Notes under the pieces: model-generated | What the model was told of the DNA's origin: nothing | What the model saw: the letters and a program-made list of their open reading frames with translations, nothing else | Databases searched by the model: none | Translations under genes and position numbers: made by a program | In this document: positions 10,113-18,134 of the stretch, piece after piece | How the letters are laid out: each line of letters starts with the position of its first letter | Position numbering within the stretch: position 1 is the first letter of the stretch | Assembly: GCA_016794545.1 (NCBI GenBank) | Contig: JAEUJX010000510.1 | Coordinates: forward strand, 1-36,150 | Direction of reading: 5' to 3' | Length of the DNA stretch: 36,150 nucleotides | Source of the DNA: Myxococcales bacterium | GTDB taxonomy: Bacteria; Myxococcota_A; Polyangia; Haliangiales; Haliangiaceae

Positions 10113-10766
10113 GTGCGCCTGTCGGGCAACAAGCTCCTCCTGATCCTGCTCGCCGGGGTGCTCGTGCTCACCGCCTCGTTCGCGATCCCGATGTTCGCGT
10201 GCCGGGTCCCCGATCCGGAGCTCGACGACCTCGGCACGGTGCCCGCGTTCGCGCTCACCGACGATCGGGGCGCGGTGTTCACCGAGGAGGCGCTCCGCGG
10301 CCACCCGACGATCGTCGACTTCGTGTTCACCCGCTGCGACACGATCTGCCCGGTGGTGTCCGCGCGCATGGCGCGGCTGCAGGAGAAGCTGGCCGATCGC
10401 AAGGCGGAGTCGATCAAGCTCGTGTCGATCAGCGTCGATCCGGCGTACGACACGCCGGAGCGGCTCGCCGCGTACGCGGCGACGTTCGGCGCACGGCCCG
10501 ACAAGTGGCGGTTCCTGACGGGACCGAGCGAGAAGGTCCGCGAGCTCGTCGAGGGTCCGTTCATGAACTCGATGCTGAACGAGGGCGTGTCCGCCAAGGG
10601 TGCGCCCCAGATCTCGCACAGCGGCTACTTCGTCCTCGTCGACGGCGACCTCCGCATCCGCGGCGTCTACGACTCCGCGGATCAGCACCGGCTCGACGAG
10701 CTCGACCACCACGCGCGCTTCCTGGCGCGCACGGGCGAGGGCCGGAGCTACAAGTTCGGAAACTGA
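10113..10766 (+). CDS. SCO1/SenC/PrrC family copper-binding thioredoxin-like protein
   Basis: This 217-residue protein has one N-terminal membrane anchor (residues about 7-29). The thioredoxin-like domain carries the copper-binding Cys75-x3-Cys79 (FTRCDTICP) and the distant ligand His169 (ISHSGYF). SCO proteins deliver copper to the CuA centre of cytochrome c oxidase or act as periplasmic thiol reductants. No oxidase genes are in the window, so the client is unknown. The GTG start gives a sensible membrane anchor. A CAGGGT hexamer ends 6 nt before it, a weak -10 match. Confidence 0.93.
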   Translation: MRLSGNKLLLILLAGVLVLTASFAIPMFACRVPDPELDDLGTVPAFALTDDRGAVFTEEALRGHPTIVDFVFTRCDTICPVVSARMARLQEKLADRKAESIKLVSISVDPAYDTPERLAAYAATFGARPDKWRFLTGPSEKVRELVEGPFMNSMLNEGVSAKGAPQISHSGYFVLVDGDLRIRGVYDSADQHRLDELDHHARFLARTGEGRSYKFGN

Positions 10767-10861: not shown

Positions 10862-11848
10862 TTGGCCCAGATCGTAAGCATCGTCCAGATGGTCCTGGGC
10901 ATCGCGATCCTGTACTGGGGCGCGGAGTGGCTGATCCGCGGCTCGGCGCAGGTCGCGCGCGCGTTCGGCGTGAAGCCGCTCGTCGTCGGGCTGACGGTGG
11001 TGGCCTACGGCGCGTCGGCGCCGGAGCTGGCGATCGCGACGAAGACCGCGCTGACGCACCACCAGCCGATCGCGCTCGGCACGGTGATCGGCTCGTGCGC
11101 GGCGAACATCTCGCTCATCCTCGGCCTCACCGCGCTGATCCGGCCGCCGGTGATCGACGGGCGCATCATCCGCCGCGAGGTGCCGGTGCTGCTCGGCTCG
11201 GCGATCGCCGTGCCGCTCCTCCTGCGCAACGGCGTCCTGTCCAAGCTCGAGGGCGGCCTGCTCATCGGCTGCGCGGTGCTGTTCACGATCGTCACGCTGA
11301 CCGTGTCGGCGAACCTCGATCCCGACGACGAGCTCGAGGTCGAGGCGCGCCGCGCCGAGGAGAGCGCGGCGACGCTCGCCGGCAAGGCGCGCCCGCGGGC
11401 GTCCCGCGCGGGCTCGGCGATCATGACGATGCTCGGCCTGCTCCTGCTCGTCGCCGGCAGCGATCTGTTCGTGCGAGGCGGGCGCGGCCTGGCCGGCGAG
11501 CTCGGCATGAGCGAGCGCATGCTCGGCCTGACCGTGATCTCGCTCGGCACCGCCCTGCCCGAGCTGATCGGCTCGCTGGTCGCCGCGGCGCGCGGCCACT
11601 CGGCGCTCGCGATCGGCTCGGTGATCGGCTCGAACCTCCTGAACGTCTTCCTGGTCCTCGGGATCACCGCGTACCTGCAGCCGATCCACGTGGGCGAGCG
11701 GATGCACATGGTCGATCTCGTGGGGCTCGTGGTGATCACCCTGCTCGGCGTCGTGATGCTCCGCGGGTCCCGGAGGATCTCGCGCGTCGAGGGCGCCATC
11801 CTGGTCGCGGCCTACGTGGCGTTCGTGGTCGCATGTTCCCTGTTGTGA
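10862..11848 (+). CDS. Na+/Ca2+-exchanger family (CaCA) membrane transporter
   Basis: A 328-residue polytopic membrane protein with the two alpha repeats of the cation/Ca2+ exchanger superfamily. The first reads GLTVVAYGASAPELAIA followed by GTVIGSCAANISLILGL. The second reads GLTVISLGTALPELIGS followed by AIGSVIGSNLLNVFLVLGI. The acidic Glu in each SAPE/ALPE motif is the expected ion ligand. Family members exchange Ca2+ (or other cations) for Na+ or H+ across the inner membrane. The start is taken as TTG 10862; an in-frame ATG at 10889 (codon 10) is possible. A central loop (about residues 150-185) is hydrophilic, as usual between the two halves. Confidence 0.92.
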   Translation: MAQIVSIVQMVLGIAILYWGAEWLIRGSAQVARAFGVKPLVVGLTVVAYGASAPELAIATKTALTHHQPIALGTVIGSCAANISLILGLTALIRPPVIDGRIIRREVPVLLGSAIAVPLLLRNGVLSKLEGGLLIGCAVLFTIVTLTVSANLDPDDELEVEARRAEESAATLAGKARPRASRAGSAIMTMLGLLLLVAGSDLFVRGGRGLAGELGMSERMLGLTVISLGTALPELIGSLVAAARGHSALAIGSVIGSNLLNVFLVLGITAYLQPIHVGERMHMVDLVGLVVITLLGVVMLRGSRRISRVEGAILVAAYVAFVVACSLL

Positions 11849-11971: not shown

Positions 11972-13393
11972 ATGAAGCGCACGTTTGCCGTCGTCGCGTC
12001 TCTGACCCTGGGGCTTGCTGGTGCGGCGAACGCCGAGATCCAGCCGAACATCGATGATGCGCCGAACAACCCGTTCGTCGTCCCGTCGGAGCGCCCGCAG
12101 GCGACGTACCGCTTCATCGACCCCGGCCTCGGCGGGATGGATCAGCCGCAGGTCTCCGCGGCGGCCACGTCGAACGTGATCTACCTGAACAACTGCAAGC
12201 CGAACGGCTGCCAGATCAGCCCGGGCGCCGACAACGCGCTCACGAACCGCTCGAGCATCCCGGACCAGGCGTCCACGGTGCAGCCGTTCGCGTACTCCGA
12301 TGCGGTCTGGCAGCAGGTCGTGCAGTGCGTCCGCGCGACGTACGCGCCGTTCGGCGTGCAGATCGTCACCGACCGTCCGGCCAGCGGCAACTACCACATG
12401 GCGATCGTCGCCGGCGTGCCGCAGAACGTGCAGATGCAGCAGGGCGTGGGCGGCGTGTCGCCGTTCTCGTGCGGCTACATCCACAACGCGATCTCGTTCT
12501 CGTTCTCGAACGTCTACGGCGGCAACGTCGACGACATCTGCTGGACGGTCGCGCAGGAGACCGCGCACTCGTGGGGCCTCGACCACAAGTTCGACAACCG
12601 CGATCCGATGACCTACCTGCAGTCGGGTCCGTCGCGGAAGGTGTTCCAGAACCAGGCCGGCCAGTGCGGCGAGTACAACGCGCGCCAGTGCCAGTGCGGC
12701 GGCAGCACGATGAACAGCTACGACGCGATCATGAAGACGTTCGGCAGCTCGACGCCGACGCCGCCGACGGTGAAGATCACCGCGCCGCTCGAGGGCGACA
12801 ACGTCCCGATGGGCTTCCCGATCCGCGCGGACATCATGGACGACATCGGCGCGTCGAAGGCCGAGCTCCGCATCGACGGCAACCTCGTCTCGACGCTGAC
12901 CACGCCGCCGTGGGTGTGGAACGCCCCCGCGTCGGTCGGCCAGGGCAACCACACGATCCACGTGAAGGGCTTCGACATCGGCGGCTCGTCCGCCGAGGCG
13001 ACCGTGAAGATCGTGATCGGGGCGGCGTGCAAGAAGCCCGGTGACTGCGCGAGCGACCAGGACACCTGTGTCGACGGCCGCTGCGTCGCCGGCGAGGGCA
13101 CCACCGGCGGCCTCGGCTCGACGTGTACGAAGAACGAGGAGTGCAAGTCGGGCCAGTGCGGCTCGGACGGCGCGGGCAACTCGTACTGCGTCGAGAACTG
13201 CGATCCGATGGGCAACGGCTGCCCGAGCGGCTTCGGCTGCATCTCGTCGGGCGCGAACGGCGGCGTGTGCTGGCCGGGCGCCGGCGACGAGGGCGGTGGT
13301 TGCTCCGCGAACACGGACGGCCGCGGCGGTCTCGCGATGCTCGGCCTCGGGTTCGCTGCGCTCCTGATCACGCGCCGCCGCCGGACGGCCTGA
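11972..13393 (+). CDS. Exported metzincin-like protein 1 with Ig-like, Cys-rich and MYXO-CTERM-type tail
   Basis: I take ATG 11972 (473 residues) because it begins a clear Sec signal peptide (residues 1-22, cut after AANA). Residues about 40-245 contain a metzincin-like core: Q195-E-T-A-H199-S-W-G-L-D-H205 followed by a Met-turn-like DPMTY (Met213). The first zinc-ligand His of HExxHxxGxxH is Gln. A fibronectin/Ig-like domain follows (about 265-355, starting PTPPTVKITAP). Next come two Cys-rich modules (about 358-440), then Cys, a hydrophobic segment and RRRR, the pattern of the MYXO-CTERM sorting tag. It is predicted to be exported and surface-anchored. Whether it is a protease is doubtful because of the Gln. 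Confidence 0.88.
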   Translation: MKRTFAVVASLTLGLAGAANAEIQPNIDDAPNNPFVVPSERPQATYRFIDPGLGGMDQPQVSAAATSNVIYLNNCKPNGCQISPGADNALTNRSSIPDQASTVQPFAYSDAVWQQVVQCVRATYAPFGVQIVTDRPASGNYHMAIVAGVPQNVQMQQGVGGVSPFSCGYIHNAISFSFSNVYGGNVDDICWTVAQETAHSWGLDHKFDNRDPMTYLQSGPSRKVFQNQAGQCGEYNARQCQCGGSTMNSYDAIMKTFGSSTPTPPTVKITAPLEGDNVPMGFPIRADIMDDIGASKAELRIDGNLVSTLTTPPWVWNAPASVGQGNHTIHVKGFDIGGSSAEATVKIVIGAACKKPGDCASDQDTCVDGRCVAGEGTTGGLGSTCTKNEECKSGQCGSDGAGNSYCVENCDPMGNGCPSGFGCISSGANGGVCWPGAGDEGGGCSANTDGRGGLAMLGLGFAALLITRRRRTA

Positions 13394-13425
13394 ATCCCCT
13401 ACACGGGGTTTCGCTGAGTTGCCCG

Positions 13426-13441
13426 GGTCTCACCCGAGACC
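13426..13441 (+). other. Perfect hairpin between metzincin-like genes 1 and 2
   Basis: GGTCTC (13426-13431) and GAGACC (13436-13441) flank the tetraloop ACCC. A second weaker stem CCCC/GGGG lies just upstream, starting 4 nt after the stop of gene 1. There is no T tract. The pair could partly terminate transcription or protect the RNA between paralogs 1 and 2. Confidence 0.4.
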
Positions 13442-13502
13442 AGGGAAAGCAAGCCGATTTCGCTAGGTTCGCTCGACCTCGGCACGATAGAACCGCAGGT
13501 CT

Positions 13503-15017
13503 ATGAAGCGACCGCAGCTGTGGGCCGTCACCACCGCCGCGGGTCTGTTCCTCGCGATGGGACAGGCCGCGGCCGAGAACGAGACCGTCGTCCCGTCGCA
13601 GGGTGACTCGATCAACGAGGACGCGCGGCCCGCGCCGCTCGTCACCCGGCCCCGGAGCGTGATGGTGTGGACCGACATCGACCCCGCCACGGTGTCGCCG
13701 GTCGTCAACACGAACAAGATCTACCTGAACAACTGCAAGCCGAGCGGCTGCGTGATCCGCAGCGGTCAGGCGAGCTCGATCGACGGCTCCGGCTACCAGG
13801 GCACGTGGGGCATCAGCGGCACCCGCACGCTCACCCCGTTCAGCGCGTCGGACGCGGTGTGGACGCAGGTCGTGGACTGCCTGAAGGACGTGTTCAGCCC
13901 GTTCGGCGTCGAGCTCGTCACGACCAACCCGAGCCCTGCCCCGCACTTCGAGATCATGATCGCGGGCTCGCCGACGGACCTCGGCATGAGCAACGGCATC
14001 GGCGGCGTGTCCCCGTTCTCGTGCGGCCAGTACATCCCGAACTCGCTGGTGTTCGACTTCCAGAAGGTGTGGGGCTCCGACGTCGAGGAGATCTGCTCGA
14101 CGGCCGCGCAGGAGATCGCGCACAGCTGGGCCCTCGACCACGTCACGGATCCGAGTGACCCGCTCACGTACAACCCGTACAACGGGCGCCGCCGGTTCAA
14201 GAACGCGCAGGTGCAGTGCGGCAGCGACTGCTCCGGCGGCCGCTCGCCGTTCGGTGACACGTGCACCGGCCTCACCAATCAGAACCACCCGTGCGCGTGC
14301 CCGAACGGCTCCACGATCCTGACGAACACGCAGAACTCGGTCACCACGATCCAGGCGCTGTTCGGCACGGGCAATCCCACGCCGCCGACCGTCAAGATCA
14401 CGGCGCCCAAGCTCGGTGCGGTCGTCGCCGCGGGCTTCCCGGTCACCGCCGACATCTCCGACGACAACGGCGTCGCGCGCGCGGAGCTCTACGTCAACAA
14501 CACGATGATCCAGATGCTCGGCGGCGCGCCGTGGGCGTTCAACGCGCCGGGCAACCTCGCGAACGGCACGCACAAGGTGAAGGTGATCGGCTACGACATC
14601 TACGGCACCTCGGCGTCCGACGAGATCTCGGTCGTGATCGGCAAGCCGTGCGGCGGCGACGGCGACTGCCCGAACGCCACCGACGTCTGCCTCGGCGGCC
14701 GCTGCGTCGCCGGGCCCGACGTGACCGGCGGCCTCGGCGCGTCGTGCACGTCGAACCCCGACTGCAAGAGCGGCACGTGCGCGAGCGACTCCTCGGGCGC
14801 CAAGCACTGCGTCGAGGGCTGCCTCCTCGGCGAAGGCCAGTGCCCCGATGGCTTCGGCTGCCTCGAGGCGGGCGGAGGGAACGGCGTGTGCTGGCCGGGC
14901 TACGACGATGGCACGGGTGGCGGCTGCTGCAGCGCGGGTAGCGATGGTTCGGGTCCGATGTTCCTCGGAGGTGTGGTGTGCGGAATGCTCGTGTTGCGCC
15001 GCCGTCGTCGTCGCTGA
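13503..15017 (+). CDS. Exported metzincin-like protein 2, MYXO-CTERM-type tail
   Basis: A 504-residue paralog of the preceding gene with the same domain order. It has a signal peptide (1-25), a metzincin-like core, an Ig-like domain (starting PTPPTVKITAP), Cys-rich modules and a tail GGGCCSAG, hydrophobic segment, RRRRRR. The active-site line reads Q203-E-I-A-H207-S-W-A-L-D-H213: Gln replaces the first His and Ala replaces the conserved Gly. The Met-turn position is Leu (DPLTY). The segment IYLNNCKPSGC matches paralog 1 almost exactly, also at DNA level, which points to tandem duplication. Its TGA shares its A with the ATG of gene 3, so translation is probably coupled. Confidence 0.88.
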   Translation: MKRPQLWAVTTAAGLFLAMGQAAAENETVVPSQGDSINEDARPAPLVTRPRSVMVWTDIDPATVSPVVNTNKIYLNNCKPSGCVIRSGQASSIDGSGYQGTWGISGTRTLTPFSASDAVWTQVVDCLKDVFSPFGVELVTTNPSPAPHFEIMIAGSPTDLGMSNGIGGVSPFSCGQYIPNSLVFDFQKVWGSDVEEICSTAAQEIAHSWALDHVTDPSDPLTYNPYNGRRRFKNAQVQCGSDCSGGRSPFGDTCTGLTNQNHPCACPNGSTILTNTQNSVTTIQALFGTGNPTPPTVKITAPKLGAVVAAGFPVTADISDDNGVARAELYVNNTMIQMLGGAPWAFNAPGNLANGTHKVKVIGYDIYGTSASDEISVVIGKPCGGDGDCPNATDVCLGGRCVAGPDVTGGLGASCTSNPDCKSGTCASDSSGAKHCVEGCLLGEGQCPDGFGCLEAGGGNGVCWPGYDDGTGGGCCSAGSDGSGPMFLGGVVCGMLVLRRRRRR

Positions 15018-16375
15018 TGTGGGGCGCGGCGCTCGGAGTCGTCGTCCTGCTCGCGCCGCTGGCCGCGAGGGCGGAGCCCGTCTCGCGCCCGCAGCCGCAG
15101 CTGCGCTGGTCGACCAACTCCGCACCACCGGCCGCGGCACCGTCGTCGCGGATCATCTTCGTGCACAAGTGCCCGCTCCAGGGCTGCACGATCCGCCCCG
15201 GCACCAACGACTCGCGGACCGACACCTCCGACATCCCGACCCAGCAGGTCGTGATCTCGCAGTTCAAGCAGTCGCCCGCGGTGTGGGACGCGATGATGGA
15301 GTGCGTGAAGAACACGTACGCGCCGTTCGACATCACGGTCACCGATGTCGATCCGGGCCCGAACGTGCCGCACTACGAGAACATCGTCGGCGGTTCGAGC
15401 GGCTCCGAGCTCCACCCCGACTTCGCGAGCGCGGGCGGCGTGTCGCCGTTCTCGTGCAACGAGATCCCGAACTCGGTCAGCTTCACGTTCGACGTGTACG
15501 GTCCCAACCCCGACCAGCTGTGCTGGACGGTCGCGCAGGAGACCGCGCACTCGTTCGGGCTCGAGCACGAGTACAACGCGGCGGATCCGCTGACCTACCT
15601 CTCCGGCGGCCCCTCGAAGAAGCGGTTCCAGGCCACCGACTCGCCGTGCGGGACGTTCTCGCCCGTGCAGTGCCGCTGCTCGGGCAAGGCGACGCAGAAC
15701 TCGTACAAGCACATCGTCGAGATGTTCGGGCCCGGCGCCGCCACGCCGCCGACGGTCGCGATCCGATCGCCCGGCGCGGGCGGCAAGGTGCAGCCCGGGT
15801 TCATCGTGCGCGCGGCCGCCGCCGACGACGTCAAGGTCGAGGAGGTCCAGCTGTTCATCGACGGCGTGGACACGATGGTGCGGGACGCCGAGCCGCCGTA
15901 TCTGCTCGCCGCGCCGGACGGCATCACCGACGGTCCGCACACGATCGAGGCGCGCGCGATCGACGTGGCCGGCGTTCCGGCGAGCGCGATGGTCGACGTC
16001 ACCATGGGCCCGCCGTGCGGCGGCGACAGCGACTGCTCCGGCGACGACGTCTGCGTGATGGGCGTGTGCCTCGCGGGTCCCGACGTGCCCGGCGGCATCG
16101 GCGACCACTGCACCGCGCCGACCGAGTGCCTGTACGCGAGGTGCGAGGGCGACGCGAACGACAAGCAGTGCGTCGCGGAGTGCGACCCGGGCGCGGCGAA
16201 CGCGTGCCCGAGCGAGTTCTCGTGCATCGCGGCCGGCGCCAGCGGCGTGTGCTGGTACAGCCCGTCGGCGGGCTGCTGCAGCGCGAGCAGCGAGCCCACC
16301 GCTCCGATCCTGCTCGGCGCGGGCGTGCTCGCCGCGATGCTCGTGCGCCGCCGCCGGCCCGCGCGCGTGCGATGA
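15017..16375 (+). CDS. Exported metzincin-like protein 3, MYXO-CTERM-type tail
   Basis: The third, most diverged paralog has 452 residues. I choose ATG 15017, which overlaps the previous stop (TGATG) and begins a good signal peptide (WGAALGVVVLLAPLAARA); an upstream GTG at 14978 would bury it. The core reads Q174-E-T-A-H178-S-F-G-L-E-H184, again with Gln for the first His; the Met-turn position is Leu. The Ig-like domain, Cys-rich modules and CC-hydrophobic-RRRR tail are all present. Conservation of Glu and of the second and third His across three diverged copies argues against simple decay. The stop overlaps the start of the DUF455 gene by ATGA. Confidence 0.88.
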   Translation: MWGAALGVVVLLAPLAARAEPVSRPQPQLRWSTNSAPPAAAPSSRIIFVHKCPLQGCTIRPGTNDSRTDTSDIPTQQVVISQFKQSPAVWDAMMECVKNTYAPFDITVTDVDPGPNVPHYENIVGGSSGSELHPDFASAGGVSPFSCNEIPNSVSFTFDVYGPNPDQLCWTVAQETAHSFGLEHEYNAADPLTYLSGGPSKKRFQATDSPCGTFSPVQCRCSGKATQNSYKHIVEMFGPGAATPPTVAIRSPGAGGKVQPGFIVRAAAADDVKVEEVQLFIDGVDTMVRDAEPPYLLAAPDGITDGPHTIEARAIDVAGVPASAMVDVTMGPPCGGDSDCSGDDVCVMGVCLAGPDVPGGIGDHCTAPTECLYARCEGDANDKQCVAECDPGAANACPSEFSCIAAGASGVCWYSPSAGCCSASSEPTAPILLGAGVLAAMLVRRRRPARVR

Positions 16376-17235
16376 CGATCACCTCCGCACCGCCTTTCGG
16401 CGCTGCTGCGCGACCCGACTCGTCGGGTCTTGCCACCGCCCGCGACTACGCGCGCGGGATCGTCGTCGCCGACACGCTGGCGGACAAGCTCGTGCCGCCG
16501 CCCGCGGAGCTCGTGCTCGAGGACGGCGAGCCGCCGCTGGTGATCCCGGCGCCCGGCCGGCCCGCGAACCTCGCGATGGTGCCGGGCCGCGCGGCCCGCG
16601 TGCCGCCGATCGCGGGCATGCGCGACCCGGCGCAGCGCGCGCGGATCCTCCACGCACTCGCGAACCACGAGCTCCAGGCGATCGAGCTGTTCGCGTGGGC
16701 GCTGCTCGCGTACCCCGACGCGCCGATCGCGTTCCGCCGCGGGCTCGTGGCGATCCTCGCCGACGAGCAGCGCCACCTCGGTCTCTACGACGCGCGGCTC
16801 CACGCGCTGGGCACGCGGTTCGGCGACCAGCCGGTGACCGGTCACTTCTGGGGCAAGCTCGACCACCTGGGCAGCCCGCTCGCCTTCGTGTGCGCGATGG
16901 GCCTCACGTTCGAGAACGCGAACCTCGACTTCGCGGGCGACTACGCCGCGGCCGCGCGCGCGTGCGGCGACCTCGAGACCGCGGCCGCGCTCGACCAGGT
17001 CCACGCCGACGAGATCGCGCACGTGCACTTCGGCTGGGTCTGGCTCGGCAAGCTCGCGCCCGGCCGCGACCCGTGGGAGGTCTACACGTCCACGGTGAAG
17101 TTCCCGCTCGGCCCGCGCCGCGCGCGCGGCGCCGTGCTCGACCGCGAGGCGCGCCGCAAGGCGGGGATGAGCGAGGCGTTCATCGACGCGCTCGACGCGG
17201 TCGCGCCGACCCGGCCGTCGGGCGAGCCGCGCTGA
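16372..17235 (+). CDS. Ferritin-like DUF455 family protein
   Basis: A 287-residue soluble helical protein whose Glu/His pattern fits a ferritin-like di-metal site. Glu100 or Glu105 (NHELQAIELFAWAL), Glu132-x-x-His135 (DEQRH), Glu181 (TFEN) and Glu214-x-x-His217 (DEIAH) are the likely ligands. It matches what I know of the DUF455 family, whose reaction is unknown. Its ATG overlaps the stop of metzincin-like gene 3 by 4 nt, and its own stop overlaps the ATP-grasp start by 1 nt. That is strong evidence of an operon mixing exported and cytoplasmic products. An oxidative or hydroxylating role is possible but is inference. Confidence 0.85.
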   Translation: MTITSAPPFGAAARPDSSGLATARDYARGIVVADTLADKLVPPPAELVLEDGEPPLVIPAPGRPANLAMVPGRAARVPPIAGMRDPAQRARILHALANHELQAIELFAWALLAYPDAPIAFRRGLVAILADEQRHLGLYDARLHALGTRFGDQPVTGHFWGKLDHLGSPLAFVCAMGLTFENANLDFAGDYAAAARACGDLETAAALDQVHADEIAHVHFGWVWLGKLAPGRDPWEVYTSTVKFPLGPRRARGAVLDREARRKAGMSEAFIDALDAVAPTRPSGEPR

Positions 17236-18134
17236 TGCCGTTCGTGATTCACGCGAACCTCGACGCGGAGGCCCGGTGGGCCGGCGGGGCCCTGCCCGCG
17301 CGGGTCGCCGAGCGGGTCAGCTACTACGCCGCGCTCGCGGCGTTCCTGGCGCACGGCGAGCTCTCCGGCGACGACGTCGAGGTCTGGGTGCCCGCCGCGA
17401 TCGACGAGCGCCGGCTCACGTTCGCGGCCGGCATCTACCCCGGCGCGCCGCCCGAGGCGGATCTCGTCTGGGCGCCCGATGCGGCGAAGGCCGCGAACGA
17501 TCGGCGGCTCGCGACGCGGCTCGCGGCCGAGGCAGGCATCGGTGTGCCGGGCGCGCGCGCGATCGCTTCGGTCGACGAGATCGACCTGCCCGGACCGTGG
17601 GTGGCGAAGGCGCCGTGGACCACCGCGGGCCGCGATCGCTGCCACGGCGACGGCGCGCCGACCGGCGAGCAGCGCACGCGGATCTCCCGCCTGCTCGCCC
17701 AGTTCGGCTCGCTCGTGCTCGAGCCCTGGCTGCCGCGCGCGTTCGACGTCGGCGTGTGCGCGATCGCGGTGCCCGGCCTCGCCGGCCAGGTGAGCCCGCC
17801 GCACGGCCTCGTCACCGACGCACGCGGCACGTTCCTCGGCATCGACCTCGCGCCACCGCCGCTGTCCGCCGAGCAGCGCGCGCGACTCGAGGCGTTCGTC
17901 CGCGACGTGCGCGCCCAGCTCCCCTACGCCGGTCCGATCGCCGTCGACGGGTTCGTCACCACCGACGGGCAGCTGTGCGTCTGCGAGATCAACGCGCGGT
18001 TCTCGTTCGGCTGGGTCGCGCGCGCGCTCGCCCGGCGGCACGGGATCGAGAAGCTCGGGTTCTCCGCGCCCCCGCCCGGCGCACACGTGCTCGTCGAGCC
18101 GCGCGGTGACGGCATCTGCGCGTGGATGATGTGA
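17235..18134 (+). CDS. ATP-grasp family ligase-like protein
   Basis: A 299-residue protein with ATP-grasp features: a lysine-containing strand and glycine/charged loop (WVAKAPWTTAGRDR, Lys125), the hinge LVLEPWL (Glu163), and the metal/phosphate motif ExNxR (Glu251, Asn253, Arg255 in CEINARFSFGW). Members join a carboxylate to an amine or thiol through an acyl-phosphate. The N-terminal third is short and may set the substrate. I cannot name a substrate. It starts on the last base of the DUF455 stop (TGATG), so the two are likely made together and may act in one pathway. Confidence 0.83.
   Translation: MPFVIHANLDAEARWAGGALPARVAERVSYYAALAAFLAHGELSGDDVEVWVPAAIDERRLTFAAGIYPGAPPEADLVWAPDAAKAANDRRLATRLAAEAGIGVPGARAIASVDEIDLPGPWVAKAPWTTAGRDRCHGDGAPTGEQRTRISRLLAQFGSLVLEPWLPRAFDVGVCAIAVPGLAGQVSPPHGLVTDARGTFLGIDLAPPPLSAEQRARLEAFVRDVRAQLPYAGPIAVDGFVTTDGQLCVCEINARFSFGWVARALARRHGIEKLGFSAPPPGAHVLVEPRGDGICAWMM

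Follow-up and report, generated by a model that had tools for sequence, protein, structure and literature searches.

Three tandem metzincin-like genes from a myxobacterial family with glutamine at the first metal-ligand position

We found that three tandem genes in the window, a stretch of 36,150 nucleotides from a Myxococcales bacterium, belong to a family in which Gln is the usual residue at the position of the first zinc-binding His. The same domains keep the Glu and the two later His of the metzincin motif, and the residue at position 1 has interchanged with His repeatedly in step with a second residue of the motif. From these observations we lean, by a modest degree, toward the three products being surface-anchored metallopeptidases of a myxobacterial metzincin-fold family with Gln as its usual first metal ligand. 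The first His of HEXXH is usually deemed indispensable, and proteins that have lost it are classed as pseudoenzymes. If the proteins described here are active, this criterion for recognizing dead metzincins will have to be revised.

The three genes and their predicted fold

The genes and their features are as follows (all on the + strand).

11972..13393, +, copy 1: 473 aa, with a signal peptide-like start, a metzincin-like domain, a Big_7 Ig domain, and a MYXO-CTERM-like tail
12107..12769, +, copy 1, metzincin-like domain, residues 46-266 (span modelled; AF2 and VIA)
12554..12586, +, copy 1, motif QETAHSWGLDH (Q195, E196, H199, H205; sequence)
12602..12616, +, copy 1, Met-turn DPMTY (M213, Y215; sequence and column statistics)
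12764..12964, +, copy 1, Big_7 Ig domain (PF17957, E 5.5e-11)
13289..13384, +, copy 1, MYXO-CTERM-like tail (Cys, hydrophobic stretch, RRRR; TIGR03901, 19.0 bits, cutoff 20)
13503..15017, +, copy 2: 504 aa, architecture as in copy 1, the most deviant of the three
14109..14141, +, copy 2, motif QEIAHSWALDH (from Q203; sequence)
15017..16375, +, copy 3: 452 aa, architecture as in copy 1, start overlapping the stop of copy 2
15536..15568, +, copy 3, motif QETAHSFGLEH (from Q174; sequence)
16268..16357, +, copy 3, MYXO-CTERM-like tail (TIGR03382, 17.8 bits, above the cutoff of 15.85)

All three frames are open from ATG codons at 11972, 13503, and 15017, and all three proteins contain Cys-rich stretches. 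The sequence confirmed the central observation of the first-pass annotation, namely, three tandem exported-type paralogs with Gln at residues 195, 203, and 174, respectively, and with the Glu and the second and third His retained. The form common to them is QExAHxx(G/A)xxH, which departs from the canonical HEXXHXXGXXH; copies 1 and 3 have an exact QEXXHXXGXXH, and copy 2 has Ala for the Gly. The motif Gly is also lost in the orthologs of copy 2 (Ala, Arg). The general-base Glu is kept in all three copies, and the Met-turn has Met in copy 1 and Leu in copies 2 and 3 (DPLTY), as had been noted. The copies are indeed well diverged, the domains of copies 2 and 3 being 42-45% identical to that of copy 1.

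A Pfam scan of the three copies matched Big_7 and left the N-terminal domain without a metallopeptidase match; in a sequence profile search of the PDB, the top match was MMP-11 (E 0.044), confined to the motif. Weak Pfam matches to Peptidase_M10 and Reprolysin occur in some family members. We modelled residues 46-266 of copy 1, and copy 2, with AF2 from 21 input sequences each (window plus related loci), as protein only with no metal. The copy 1 model had a mean pLDDT of 88.3 and a pTM of 0.86, and the copy 2 model was of lower confidence (75.9 and 0.79). Foldseek placed matrix metalloproteinases at the top for copy 1, with a best E of 1.2e-4 to MMP13 at a probability of 1.00. With VIA, the same model matched archaemetzincin 2x7m (Z 10.6, rmsd 4.8, 141 aligned), 3lmc (Z 10.5, rmsd 2.6, 128 aligned), and adamalysins (adamalysin II) and MMPs at Z of about 10, and the copy 2 model matched 2x7m (Z 11.2, rmsd 4.2, 140 aligned). 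The best 50 rows were metzincins for both copies, at Z of about 9-11. The structure prediction called for by the first-pass annotation thus supports, at the level of the models, that copies 1 and 2 have a metzincin fold; copy 3 is 44% identical to copy 1, and the fold comparison rests on copies 1 and 2. Matrixins, adamalysins, and archaemetzincins share the motif spacing with the window copies, the predicted fold with copies 1 and 2, and the Met of the Met-turn with copy 1, but the copies have Gln for the first His and Ala at position 4.

The family and the residue at motif position 1

The source genome has 15 copies of the family at the BLAST level and 16 by profile. The family was found in 35 of 35 genomes searched within the order, with up to 16 copies per genome, and in 52 of 379 genomes in a sample of the phylum. 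A sample of the gammaproteobacterial class of Dokdonella immobilis had it in 6 of 274 genomes, strongly in Dokdonella alone. The nearest named records come from Kofleriaceae, Myxococcales, and Deltaproteobacteria MAGs.

In the set of 171 unique domains, the first motif residue is Gln in 125, His in 36, and Met in 6. Because the homologs mostly have Gln at the first-ligand column, the outcome named beforehand as contrary, His in most close homologs, is absent. Syntenic orthologs of the array genes carry the same Gln motif. Gln is found in nearly all of the clade around the three copies, which shows that they inherited the residue and did not acquire it in three separate events. As a control, we looked at matrixin-like loci of the same phylum that were hit by NF041905 (the MXAN_2677/2678 family), a model that is myxobacterial like the window copies and myxosortase-dependent by name. 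It matched 4 of 31 family members weakly and gave no match for copy 1. Unlike the window copies, the matrixin-like loci, themselves weak NF041905 hits, read HExxH in every case found, with no Gln among them, and we therefore take Gln to be a property of the family to which the window copies belong.

Two further loci of the source genome are on contig C663, where three more Gln-type paralogs form another tandem array at 36835-40471 (-), and a His-type relative lies about 10 kb from it at 50782-51264 (+). The Met-type members (L068, L071, L073, L176, L177, and L221) read MExAHxxGxxH, one of them with MEIGH, and keep the Glu and both His; the Met label requires two changes on the tree.

To follow the residue at position 1, we used two unrooted trees that were built without the motif columns, a quick one of 165 rows and a careful one of 79 rows, for which sequences were taken largely from the best-scoring matches of the individual searches and so form an uneven sample. 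There were 11 changes between Gln and His on the quick tree and 8 on the careful tree, which are read without direction since the trees are unrooted. On the careful tree, His needs 10 gains or losses, 9 of them forced by well-supported branches. These changes are coupled to position 4, three residues on, the typical paired states being HExGH and QExAH. On the quick tree, 9.4 of 10 independent pairs joined Gly at position 4 to His and a residue other than Gly (mostly Ala) to Gln, with 0 opposite (median p 0.004), and the careful tree gave the same coupling in 6.7 of 7, again with 0 opposite (median p 0.016). Because the column was chosen by scanning, these p-values are uncorrected, and the argument lies in the consistency and the rank: position 4 ranks first among 382 column tests, and the second-ranked column, in the strand region 20 residues upstream before the active-site helix, has 5.8 pairs. 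Exceptions are found in 8 of 120 Gln rows, which have Gly, and in 1 of 32 His rows, which has Ala. Repeated interchange with a coupled second position implies that both states work, and the coupled switching argues for a metal site that is under selection and functional.

Retention of the active site and its possible meaning

Where the motif is ungapped, 121 of 124 Gln-type, 36 of 36 His-type, and 6 of 6 Met-type domains retain the Glu together with the second and third His. The remaining domains have mostly lost the whole Glu/His/His set together, as in QTVGNLVGLEF. The Met-turn Met is present in 103 of 120 Gln-type domains and replaced in 16 (13 by Leu), versus none of 32 His-type domains, which suggests some relaxation; none of the 6 Met-type domains has it replaced either. 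A Tyr two residues past the Met-turn is found in 106 of 120 Gln-type domains, and a linkage between this Tyr and Gln had no significant support on the tree. The first-pass annotation had left three options for the copies: pseudoproteases, binding proteins, or enzymes with an altered metal site. The joint retention and the coupling of the His/Gln switch to Gly/Ala favor the altered site.

In such a site, the metal would be held by Gln and the two remaining His, and possibly by the Tyr two past the Met-turn (M/L-T-Y, compare SIMHY of astacins), with the conserved Glu as the general base. In astacins, the equivalent Met-turn Tyr binds zinc, and the metzincin Glu is a general base and not a ligand (PMC9848320). 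Within the same helix, Ala instead of Gly at position 4 may accommodate the change at position 1. Sec export followed by myxosortase processing of the tail would place the enzyme on the cell surface, where the adjacent Ig domain may bind substrate or matrix. The fold, the family-wide Gln, the joint retention, and the coupled switching are computational results, and metal binding, peptide hydrolysis, and surface location are inferred.

Copper is a plausible, if tentative, candidate for the metal. VMP3 of Volvox carteri is a catalytic QEXXHXXGXXH metalloproteinase that is reported to prefer copper (Heitzer and Hallmann 2002, as cited in PMC7717551; title also in PMC5704591), and it is the only characterized metalloproteinase with this motif that was found. 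In quantum mechanical work, H197Q favors Cu(II) in MMP8 (PMC7717551). As far as these sources describe it, VMP3, which is of the gametolysin type (M11), resembles the window copies in having QEXXHXXGXXH, in being extracellular, and in belonging to a multigene family, but it is eukaryotic and has other accessory domains. When the M11 profile PF05548 was run against the source genome at E up to 10, it gave no match at the three genes and one sub-cutoff match elsewhere; membership in M11 was rejected on this ground, and the likeness to VMP3 is one of functional analogy only.

The copies might accordingly be copper-preferring peptidases like VMP3, in which Gln, or Met in a sister branch, tunes the site from zinc to copper. 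This is a narrower form of the reading we prefer and is compatible with it, and we regard it as possible though doubtful. Met is a common copper ligand, and it stands at position 1 in the 6 Met-type members that keep the Glu and both His. SCO1 proteins are a copper chaperone family. The genome has two SCO1-like genes, and one of them, syntenic in several relatives, is found about 1.2 kb upstream of the array; a link between them is suggestive, the proximity having been noticed after the fact and seen only for this locus. Apart from the lack of detectable M11 homology, a site with Gln and Tyr as ligands could equally well hold zinc or some other metal. A bolder proposal, which we consider rather improbable, extends this to the whole family: the first ligand would have switched repeatedly among His, Gln, and Met, the non-His states being accommodated at position 4, to give surface peptidases with an altered metal choice, probably copper. 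If true, the family would be a natural series from a zinc protease site to a copper site. If the proteins are active, the copper enzyme of Volvox would have a bacterial counterpart with no relationship detectable by profile, and natural His/Gln/Met pairs would offer a way to test how metzincins choose their metal.

The proteins could also be pseudoproteases, in which the metzincin domain, the Ig domain, and the anchor act as an adhesin, receptor, or scaffold with no hydrolysis, which we judge somewhat unlikely. ADAM2, 11, 18, 22, 23, and 32 and UNC-71 resemble the window copies in being modular, surface-displayed metzincins whose first ligand position is taken by Gln, and the ADAM members with this Gln are inactive (PMC11266112). 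However, these ADAMs have lost the Glu, and often more ligands, reading QLLSL, QTLGQ, QSLAH, or QSIGH (PMC11266112, Table 2), whereas the copies keep both. Gln alone thus marks neither a dead nor a live site, and it is the kept Glu that makes the distinction. Some family members have lost the whole motif and keep the domain, and copy 2, in which Ala replaces Gly (Arg in orthologs) and Leu replaces Met, is the best pseudoprotease candidate of the three, so that the fates of the copies may differ. On the other hand, joint retention of Glu/His/His across the Gln-type domains is not needed for a binding role, and the recurrent interchange with a coupled position 4 speaks for two functional states. 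Six relatives (L014, L015, L025, L065, L066, and L072), in which the metal motif is mostly or wholly lost from a retained domain, are likely true pseudoenzymes.

Conservation of the ligands could reflect metal binding without catalysis, and the proteins might bind a metal without hydrolyzing peptides, to sequester or sense it or to carry out a different reaction. As this explanation would have it, the ligands stay constant even where the Met-turn and the Gly differ among some Gln-type members, but the general-base Glu, which is no ligand in metzincins (PMC9848320), is as conserved as the ligands, and we hold the explanation to be distinctly improbable.

The Gln codons CAG and CAA are one base from the His codons CAC and CAT, and Gln was nonetheless kept through deep divergence. 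The earlier suggestion that the shared Gln was selected and not decayed is upheld by the family-wide Gln, the open frames, and dN/dS values of 0.25-0.61 against syntenic orthologs, with no sign of decay, and is refined in that one inherited Gln takes the place of three hits. That the Gln is a recent loss of function in genes undergoing decay, for which the missing His alone would speak, is ruled out to a practical certainty by the same evidence together with the syntenic orthologs that share the motif.

Tails and neighboring genes

In Myxococcus xanthus, myxosortase cleaves proteins that have MYXO-CTERM tails, and these become anchored at the cell surface; the tail is defined by a Cys, a hydrophobic helix, and an Arg-rich end (PMC11980579). 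The assignment of MYXO-CTERM-type tails in the first-pass annotation held for the pattern, since a Cys, a hydrophobic stretch, and an Arg-rich end are present in the sequence of all three copies, and only in part for the models: copies 1 and 3 scored 19.0 and 19.9 with TIGR03901 against its cutoff of 20, only copy 3 exceeded the cutoff of TIGR03382, and copy 2 matched neither model. By a simple rule for the Cys/hydrophobic/Arg tail, 96 of 106 complete Gln-type ORFs have one, as do 11 of 30 His-type and 0 of 6 Met-type ORFs. The association of Gln with the tail was not significant on the tree, though the tail is far commoner in the Gln type.

The genes around the array with a Pfam assignment are listed below.

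10113..10766, +, SCO1/SenC-like gene (PF02630, E 6.3e-29), upstream of the array
10862..11848, +, Na/Ca exchanger gene (PF01699), between the SCO1-like gene and copy 1, syntenic in relatives
16372..17235, +, DUF455 gene (PF04305, E 1.8e-48), overlapping the end of copy 3, syntenic in relatives

The SCO1/SenC-like gene is syntenic in L016, L017, L018, L020, and L022. A plasmid search gave no match. Copies 2 and 3 overlap in TGATG at 15015-15019, and the ATG of the DUF455 gene at 16372 lies within the end of copy 3. Copies 2 and 3, the DUF455 gene, and an ATP-grasp-like gene follow one another with overlapping stop and start codons across 15015-18134, which suggests one operon. The DUF455 and ATP-grasp genes follow the array in L022 and L023, too.
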